DNA of 64,000 nucleotides from Metaphire vulgaris (taxonomy: Eukaryota; Annelida; Clitellata; Crassiclitellata; Megascolecidae). The notes below the pieces were generated by a model, which saw only the letters and a program-made list of their open reading frames with translations, ran no database searches and had not been told where the DNA came from. The stretch is taken from assembly GCA_018105865.1 (NCBI GenBank), contig CM030862.1, positions 8,164,479-8,228,478 on the forward strand, in the 5' to 3' direction. Made by a program: the position numbers and the translations under genes. Of the stretch, positions 30,906-33,900 are shown in pieces (position 1 is the stretch's first letter; each line of letters starts with the position of its first letter).

Positions 30906-33900
30906 TGTAAAGTTGATATGCTGTCGTCTGCAGACGTCTTCATTTTTCTGATTGTTGCATGTCTGGTCAACAGCATTATTTGCCCACCTGTTACTGAAAA
31001 ACCAGATGAAAATCTTCAAGATTCAAACATTGGGGAGGATGTGGTAAAATGTTCTAGTTAAATTACAGATGAGAAGATTGTTAATGAATTTACCTAAGGT
31101 GACCATATTTCTGGAAGCTAAATATTGGGTACCCTTTCTTCTCTCCAAAATCCCATTGCTTGCTTGGCAATCTCGTCTCATTTATTGTTGTTGTAATGGG
31201 GATTCCACATTCCATGACTTCATTAGATTCCTTTGACAAAGAGGTTTCCAAACCACCGACCGCGGGTAACTTGTGGCCCACCAATTCTCAGAAAGTGACC
31301 TGTGATGCCTAATTAAGTAGGTCTTCAAAGCGGCAATTTATATGAGGCAAAAACTTGATGTAAAATGAAAAACGGGACAAAGCGATATCCTGTTTTATAT
31401 AAGAAATTTCTCGGACAAACGCCAGAAGAGTGGGGGCGTCCCAGAAAAAATCTGAATGAGTGGTCACCTTAATCTTACTGTGTTGAGTCATTCAGTTGTA
31501 TAATCAAAACAGAGTAATTTCTTCTTGATAGCAGCTTCTCTAGCAACTGTAATGATTTTCATAGTGTTAATGGTCTTATGCAAATCTGTGGCTTTTCATT
31601 TATAGCATAGCCATAGGCTAACTTAGAATAATTATTGTGTACTTTACGATAATTTTACCATATAGTAAGATAGTTAACAATATTCTTGATATGGATTAAA
31701 ATTGTTACTGCTTTGATTTCATTATGTTCACTGTGAAGTATCAATTCTTAATACTAAGATGCTAACTTGCATTTATATCAGTCGACATCAATTTACCCCA
31801 AATACTACTGCATTTATTTTTAGGAATATGGGCTTCAGTATGAGAAATACCTCAAAGAGGTTGTTAGTGTTTTAGAATCAGATGAGGCTTTTAGGAAGAA
31901 GCTTCAAGAGTCAAATGAGACTGATATTAAGGTAATTTGGGTGACATTGTTAGTTGCCTAACAGCTTAAAAGTTCCCTGCATGGCCAACAGTTGCAAATG
32001 ATGGTCGTCTTGTAACTCTTGTTGTCGTTGCTTTCTTGTGGCTTTGGGAATGTTTGCCATCAATGTTGTTTTGTATATCGGAGTTTCTTCATGTTGACCG
32101 CTAGATAATTATCTGTGTTGAATACATGCCTGCAATATTAAAAATTTAATATTAAATATTTAATTTAAATCTTGTAAAAGATCTTCAGAATTATTTTTGC
32201 AATTTTATAAAATTAGAAATTCGCTATTGTGGAAACCAAGGCACAGTTTTGATAGAATTTTTATTGACTTGCATGTTTGTGGCATGAATTGTTATTATTT
32301 CTGTAGATCTGACCAAAAATTTTGCACTGACAATAAATGAATTTTAAGTAAAAGTAGCTTCACGTGCTTGAAGCCGATAAGATAATTCAAGACTTAACAT
32401 CTTTTTAAAAGTTTCAAATGAGAATTGTTTCACTGGGTTGCAAAGTTGAGCGAGATCTTGAGAGTTTTTTCATTTATTTGGCAATTTATTTGACTGAAAA
32501 TGCAGACAGCTGACAAGGAGATGCAGGAAAATTTTTAAAGTTTCATGTTACTTAACCCGTTAACTGGGCATCCCGAGTAACGCTCATCCATTTTACATTG
32601 AGTTACAAATAGTTGCCAGTTAAGGGGTTAAAGTGTGAACAAATGATGCTGTCAGAGTATGCAGATCTATGTTTTCCACAGAAATCAGCCAATGGACTTG
32701 TGCCGTTGGGGTTTGCATCTTTAAAACAATAACAATAGAGAAATTTGAAGGCTGTATTTTGATTGGTTTTGTGTAGATTGATCAGCTGTCCTACCAGAAA
32801 TATCTGCGTGAAGTGATAGCTTTGCTTATGTCAGATTCAGAATTTTCTCGGAGAACGGTTTATGCCAGTCAGAACATTTCACAGCAGGTTCAACGCTAAC
32901 TTCAGTTAAATATGTATGCATACAGGGCTGCCGAGAGAGGAGGCGCACAGGGGAGGGCAAATGCCCAGGGACCCAGTGATCTGTTTGGGGCCCGGGCAAG
33001 TTAGGTTAAGGTTAGAGTTAGGGTTTGGGCTAGGGTTACTAACTCTATAGACGTCAAAAGGCATTGCTTGCTGATGCCTACATGCAAAAAAGGTCATCAC
33101 CACTTTTTACTACTTGATTTATTCCTCCAGAGTCTTGAAAAGTCTGAGAAGCAAGAAATAAAAGAAAGGTTGTCACCAGATTTTAATCTTTCTAGGGGCC
33201 CCGTGGCTACTCTGCCCAGGAGCCCAGAATTTCTCTCGGCAGCCCTGTATTCATGTACAGTATATTCATATTTTGAAATGTGTCACATTCACTAGAGTCA
33301 CCCTGGATTCAACTGGGTCACTGCACATTTGGCTGCTTCCATTTTGTAGTTGTTGATCATATCAGCATTTACAAAATTTAGCTACTTCTGTGTGTGTGTG
33401 TGTTTGTGTTTGTGTATGTGAGTGAGTATGTGTGTGTGTGTGTGCTTGAGAAATTAACAATTCATAGCATGTAACAGAACATTGGAAGTAAGCTGGAGAA
33501 GCCTTGCTCAGAAACTGTTATTTCTTTGAACTTGAGCCAACATGCAAGTCCCAATCTTGGACCAAAGTGCCATTAGGATCAAGTCTGAAGTTTTCACAGA
33601 CCATTTTTCAATCCATCATGTTTGCATAAATGCATTACATTCAGTTCAATGAGTCACAGATCTCAGCGGCCACTTCAATCTTGTCTCTGGGTAATTCTGA
33701 TAAAGTGACGTATTATTCTTATGCAGTTATAACTTATGTAGCGGAAATAATAATAATTATAACCTTAGCAGCCATTTGATAATTAATTTGTAGTTATTGG
33801 ACAGCTCATGACATGTAGGGTCGCCTTTTGAAGAAGGGTAAGTTGTATTCTCTCACCCTGACCATCTATTCTGCCCTTCTCAAATCCACCACAAGCTCAA

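Follow-up and report, generated by a model that had tools for sequence, protein, structure and literature searches.

The locus analysed here raises the question of whether a single nucleobindin gene of Metaphire vulgaris encodes two versions of the nesfatin-1 mid-region and, if so, how the second version is used. The gene lies on the forward strand of a 64-kb stretch of genomic DNA, hereafter the window, and two short coding exons, 2a and 2b, sit side by side between its first and third exons. The appetite-suppressing activity of mammalian nesfatin-1 has been assigned to residues 24-53 (Shimizu 2009, cited in the available text of PMC2997068), and the accessible part of PMC9004410 describes the nesfatin-1 receptor as not yet known at that time. 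A second mid-segment separates positions that the fold requires, common to 2a and 2b, from changed positions that possibly set the target, and it places a peptide-hormone precursor among the genes that tandem exon duplication has diversified. On the human sequence, residues 24-53 are nearly the 2a exon.

Gene structure and exon map

That the host gene is a nucleobindin is borne out by two of its parts. The predicted N-terminal part matches the Pfam family NUCB1_N (PF25434) from residue 25 onwards with 140.2 bits (E 7e-41, cut-off 27), and the EF-hand region encoded by exons 6-8 (junction masked) matches the structure of human nucleobindin 1, 1SNL (1snl_A, E 6.7e-34). Exons 2a to 8 were placed by tblastn with a human NUCB2 query, and exons 1 and 9 to 11 were set from splice borders and frames. 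The coding part of exon 1 (30918..31043, all exons being on the + strand) holds the start codon, an N-terminus that is hydrophobic by eye and a variable N-terminal part, and ends in phase 0 at a GT. It is followed by exon 2a (31824..31931; 36 codons, 108 nt), the canonical nesfatin-1 mid-exon, by exon 2b (32777..32887; 37 codons, 111 nt), and by exon 3 (35588..35714), which encodes the remainder of the nesfatin-1-like region and closes it with a KR site after KLDEL. The introns after exon 1 and exon 2 are both phase 0, so that the mid-nesfatin exon stands between two phase-0 introns.

Further downstream, exons 4 (37237..37367) and 5 (37810..37995) and the EF-hand exons 7 (38868..38926) and 8 (39627..39809), the latter two within the 1SNL match, rest on tblastn together with splice borders and frame. 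Exon 9 (42642..42731) was set from frame and splice sites and has a counterpart of 53% identity in the paralogous gene C39 (see below), as does, weakly, the probable exon 10 (43811..43919), which was set in the same way; the probable terminal exon 11 (47077..47171) follows from frame and acceptor only and ends in TGA. Between exon 6 (38313..38402) and exon 7 the reading phase is off by one base at the canonical borders, which are the only ones that fit and lie beside a run of T (38380-38410, 38860-38870). The 1SNL relative reads through at this point, and the exon 6 match in C39 shows an irregularity too, in the form of five extra residues. An assembly slip or a real frameshift would each be sufficient to produce the mismatch, which leaves exon 2 untouched.

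Exon 2b as a second version of exon 2a

The original prediction described 2a and 2b as phase 0-0, stop-free exons bounded by AG/GT, and a re-check of coordinates, phases, frames and borders agreed with it throughout, as it did with their position between exons 1 and 3. Open AG/GT stretches of 90-129 nt are common, with 34 within 31044-35587 (both exons counted) and 928 window-wide (452 on the + and 476 on the - strand), and therefore the evidence for 2b is protein similarity, not borders and frame. In a tblastn search of the window with 2a, 2b is the next match after self (E 4e-5), and 11 of the 23 residues of codons 4-26 are identical in the two exons. When the 918 open stretches outside 2a were scored against it, three turned out to be frames of 2b, with a top score of 65; the top score among the remaining 915 was 40. 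The proposed homology of the two exons is well founded on these values, and the identity of 2a as the nesfatin-1 mid-region exon follows from tblastn, from NUCB1_N and from its recurrence in all four nucleobindin genes of the genome. No further exon copies were found in the window by tblastn at E values up to 10, and the likeness of 2a and 2b at the DNA level is not above chance, with 124 of 200 shuffles scoring at least equally high.

Alone, 2b reaches 22.5 bits on NUCB1_N (E 1.5e-4), under the curated cut-off of 27. Within the N-terminal part of the window gene, the score is 143.9 bits with 2a, 108.7 bits with 2b and 79.5 bits without either exon, and a form with both exons reaches 145.9 bits in two stretches. 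Exact shuffles of 2b in the same position gave 76.1-81.6 bits in nine out of nine cases. Moreover, 2b and exon 3 together are collinear with NUCB1_N at 71-74 bits in 3/3 genes.

Paralogous genes in the same genome

The species' own genome assembly (G000, 728 Mb, 246 contigs) was searched for relatives of the window gene. Exon 2a DNA matches at three places, and the proteins of exons 3 and 8 have four matches each, one in the window itself (C31) and the others on C17, C39 and C10. With five candidates scored per search, the genome thus holds at least four nucleobindin genes, and further, very divergent ones could exist. All four bear introns and are not retrocopies; they fall in two pairs, and silent sites between the genes are saturated or close to it. 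In the one locus (L001) obtained from a viral_contigs scan, no nucleobindin was found.

Paralogue exons were sought by tblastn in 20 kb around each gene (L005-L014). Exon 2a is present in 4/4 genes, and in two of the three paralogues it is followed, ahead of exon 3, by 2b. The C39 copy (L011:2728-2618, - strand) is 65% identical to the window 2b and the C17 copy (L009:7737-7847) 51%; both have 37 codons, are stop-free and AG/GT-bounded, and contain no indel. C10 holds a remnant (L013, about 7722-7816) that keeps pieces such as QYEKYLQDVV and is broken by several indels in comparison with the C17 copy. The expectation that relatives of 2b should be free of stops and indels, applied here to paralogues rather than orthologues, thus holds for C39 and C17 and fails for C10. 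As the C10 copy is recognisable yet broken by indels, 2b does decay without selection. An open AG/GT frame that resembles 2a by accident, conceivable given how common such stretches are, has a negligible probability and was rejected, as paralogues carry a counterpart in the same position, no unrelated stretch in the window comes near its score and its shuffles add nothing to the profile match.

Selection on exon 2b and age of the duplication

A dN/dS test of 2b, proposed along with the prediction, was run as pN/pS among the three intact paralogous copies and came out in its favour, with ratios of 0.29 (C31-C39), 0.34 (C31-C17) and 0.36 (C39-C17), obtained with a custom script and rough in value because silent sites are saturated or nearly so (an uncorrected pS of 0.75 or more amounts to saturation). 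None of 2,000 bootstraps reached 1 in any of the three pairs, and despite the roughness of the values their purifying direction, as read from these sequences, is not in doubt. For the same pairs in the same order, 2a gave 0.50 (a wide interval, 132 of the 2,000 bootstraps reaching 1 or more), 0.39 and 0.17, and exons 3, 5 and 8 together gave 0.17, 0.23 and 0.21. In two pairs pN was higher in 2b than in 2a (0.29 and 0.30 vs 0.18 and 0.13), and in the third it was 0.18 for 2b vs 0.21 for 2a.

The ratio between 2a and 2b within the window (0.24-0.74) would, taken alone, still allow for a 2b that drifts neutrally while 2a is constrained, so that simulations and the comparisons between 2b copies carry the case against neutrality. 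For the window exon alone, 0-23 of the 10,000 neutral runs at each of seven divergences ended in the state observed, compared with 1-376 of 2,000 at omega 0.3. Another simulation used a third-position criterion of 0.654 over all 36 codons (observed 23/36 = 0.639); here the state arose in 0-2 of 2,000 neutral runs and, at omega 0.1, in as many as 756 of 2,000; both neutral simulations are of substitutions without indels. An unused 2b, left over from an old exon duplication, would resemble exactly the remnant in C10 and would fit the weak donor of the window copy (see below), but these simulations and the low pN/pS among the intact copies make such decay very improbable, and it was set aside; a very recent loss in the window copy alone is possible. 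Exon 2b is thus almost certainly a working coding exon, and selection has kept it intact in three of the four nucleobindin genes.

A FastTree phylogeny unites the three 2b exons (support 0.995) and resolves the genes into two pairs, C31+C39 and C17+C10 (0.98). Since the 2b exons cluster by type, the exon duplication is older than the gene duplications, and C10 lost its 2b after the split from its sister C17.

Conserved core and changed residues

Ten columns are invariant across all seven genomic exons (L4, Y6, Y9, L10, E12, V13, L17, D20, F23 and N31 in 2a numbering). The invariant N opens an N-x-S/T motif in 7/7 exons (NET, NMT, NIS and NIS in the 2a exons; NIS, NFS and NVS in the 2b exons). 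In an ungapped alignment of the window pair nothing is common after codon 26; when all seven exons are aligned, the tails of 2a and 2b line up on this common motif. The human segment is not known to carry N-x-S/T at that position, and the motif near the end of exon 2 may be a lineage-specific glycosylation site in the nesfatin-1 region.

From 2a to 2b of the window, acidic residues decrease from nine to four and basic ones from six to four, and RKK in 2a is replaced by RR in 2b. This RR pair is not conserved, the C39 and C17 copies having QK and RK. An extra predicted cleavage site inside nesfatin-1 is described for a brittle star and for Drosophila in the available text of PMC5627052. Single-sequence AlphaFold models, which carry little weight, predict one helix for 2a (residues 2-35, pLDDT 88.9) and two for 2b (3-19 and 21-36, pLDDT 81.4). 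Amphipathic moments were uninformative, being reached by 841 (2a), 1524 (2b) and 1165 (human segment) of 5,000 shuffles.

Splicing signals

Transcripts with 2a, 2b, both or neither would all stay in frame, and any exclusivity would therefore need regulation. Scored with matrices of human splice-site frequencies and ranked among GT sites, the 2a donors of all four genes lie at the 97.7-98.7th percentile and the 2b donors at the 63rd (C31), 71st (C39) and 91st (C17), below 2a in 3/3 genes. Weak donors also occur elsewhere, at exon 4 of the window (72nd percentile) and exon 5 of C17 (61st). The donor contrast is a hint, not proof, that 2a might be the default exon. A second possible in-frame acceptor of 2b lies nine bases in (start 32786, 34 codons), and alternation between 32777 and 32786 could add or drop three residues.

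The intron between 2a and 2b measures 845 nt in C31, 1,054 nt in C39 and 655 nt in C17, which is too long for steric exclusion. The 300-nt flanks of 2a and 2b resemble each other no more than shuffled sequence does (52/200 and 155/200 shuffles reach the scores), and no selector-like sequences common to the flanks of both exons, of the kind used in competing RNA structures, were recognised. Between C31 and C39, conservation is seen in the upstream flank of 2a and the downstream flank of exon 5 (0/300 shuffles each), and no clear conserved flank was detected beside 2b, where 66/300 and 24/300 simple base shuffles reach the scores.

How the two exons might be used

Nucleobindin genes with 2b can probably make two protein forms, given their exon structure. 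The account that we favour, with a confidence somewhat better than even, is an old tandem duplication of the mid-exon with 2a as default and 2b swapped in. The nesfatin-1 mid-exon would have been duplicated in one nucleobindin gene before this gene was copied into four; 2a would have retained the ancestral sequence and strong donors, and 2b would have persisted as an additional coding exon in three genes and disappeared from the fourth. Exon 2b shares with 2a the fixed spacing of its core residues (L, Y, YL, E, V, L, D and F) and the N-x-S/T motif but presents a different surface, and would so occupy the same place in the protein, and the order exon 1-2b-3 would be chosen over 2a in some tissue or stage. 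The outcome would be an alternative version of both the nucleobindin N-terminus and the nesfatin-1-like region, with the ends kept and the middle changed. Against this account speak the frame compatibility of every splice combination, the lack of a conserved flank beside 2b, the faster change of 2b than of 2a in two of three pairs, the occurrence of weak donors at exons other than 2b, and the one gene of four that does without 2b. The accessible part of PMC5740500 asks of swapped exons that they be similar, have a common frame, differ by no more than 20 aa in length, contain no stop and be bounded by GT-AG, and the pair shows all of these features.

Joint use is a less probable alternative that still deserves serious weight. 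Both exons would be spliced in, always or often, 2b being an ordinary or a cassette exon, and the protein would gain tandem related helices in a longer N-terminal region. The compatibility of all combinations in frame and the steady selection on 2b agree with this, we found nothing that enforces exclusivity, and the form with both exons scores equally well on NUCB1_N, so that the profile favours neither swapping nor joint use. What makes substitution for 2a likelier is that 2b keeps the same core and terminal N-x-S/T in all its copies, as expected of two exons that share one slot. The weaker 2b donors also argue against joint use, and the loss of 37 constitutive residues in C10 would presumably have been a larger change than the loss of an alternative exon.

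The swapping of 2b for 2a might extend to the hormone itself. Regulated exclusive splicing would then yield two nesfatin-1-like hormones per gene in at least three genes of one animal, presumably secreted and different in activity, with core and glycosylation site constant and the surface changed; on present sequence evidence we consider this doubtful. Under such a switch, the RR pair of the window 2b form could be cut to give a shorter peptide. If true, the switch would offer a natural map of which peptide face sets the target, and to our knowledge it would be the first splice-switched nesfatin.

Comparison with known systems

The window gene resembles bilaterian NUCB1 and NUCB2 in NUCB1_N, the EF-hand region, the KR site and the mid-nesfatin exon between phase-0 introns, the last being the single gene-structure feature common to bilaterian nucleobindins according to the available text of PMC9004410. 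The mid-region is also retained in the oyster precursor (available text of PMC8398477). In contrast to other nucleobindins, a second mid-exon follows the first in three of four genes here, and the four genes differ from the single precursor in the invertebrates covered by the accessible part of PMC5627052. The prediction had named no precedent, and none was found in the openly accessible literature either: the accessible portions of PMC9004410, PMC5627052, PMC8398477, PMC5700172, PMC9031102 and PMC4992253 contain no nucleobindin with two mid-exons. One skipped-exon event in mouse NUCB2 is listed in the available text of PMC9031102, and a silkworm nucleobindin carries the label 'isoform X1' in that of PMC5700172.

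Tandem-duplicated alternative exons are a well-known kind. According to a figure cited in the accessible text of PMC9013439, about 10% of animal genes have been reported to contain tandemly duplicated exons. With such duplication this common, the novelty lies in the place, a nucleobindin, and the window gene is a new case of a tandem-duplicated exon in a peptide-hormone precursor. Like the mutually exclusive pairs described in the available parts of PMC5740500, PMC9741552 and PMC9013439, 2a and 2b are homologous neighbours of the same phase and near-equal length, stop-free, able to join the same neighbouring exons, ancient and conserved. Unlike those, the present pair is known as genomic structure, joint inclusion keeps the frame, and no competing intronic elements were found in its flanks; the accessible text of PMC5740500 itself warns that many similar neighbouring exons are not exclusive. 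Calcitonin-type precursors (available text of PMC5627052) likewise combine one peptide-precursor gene with alternative exons for different peptides; there, however, transcript variants have been seen, whereas the present case comes from genomic structure.

Other features of the window

Two short elements, MITE-like by eye, are related to each other through their AACCC...GGGGTTAA ends and a common middle; they lie at about 32554-32632, upstream of 2b, and at about 36052-36132, in the intron after exon 3. The window further contains a selenocysteine tRNA gene (28176-28262, - strand) some 2.7 kb ahead of the nucleobindin start codon and a tRNA-Ser (gct) gene (9306-9387, - strand). Frame-broken reverse-transcriptase pieces at 6550-7042 (+ strand; RVT_1 matches of 21.0 and 23.6 bits, short of the 29.6-bit cut-off) are the remains of an old mobile element.
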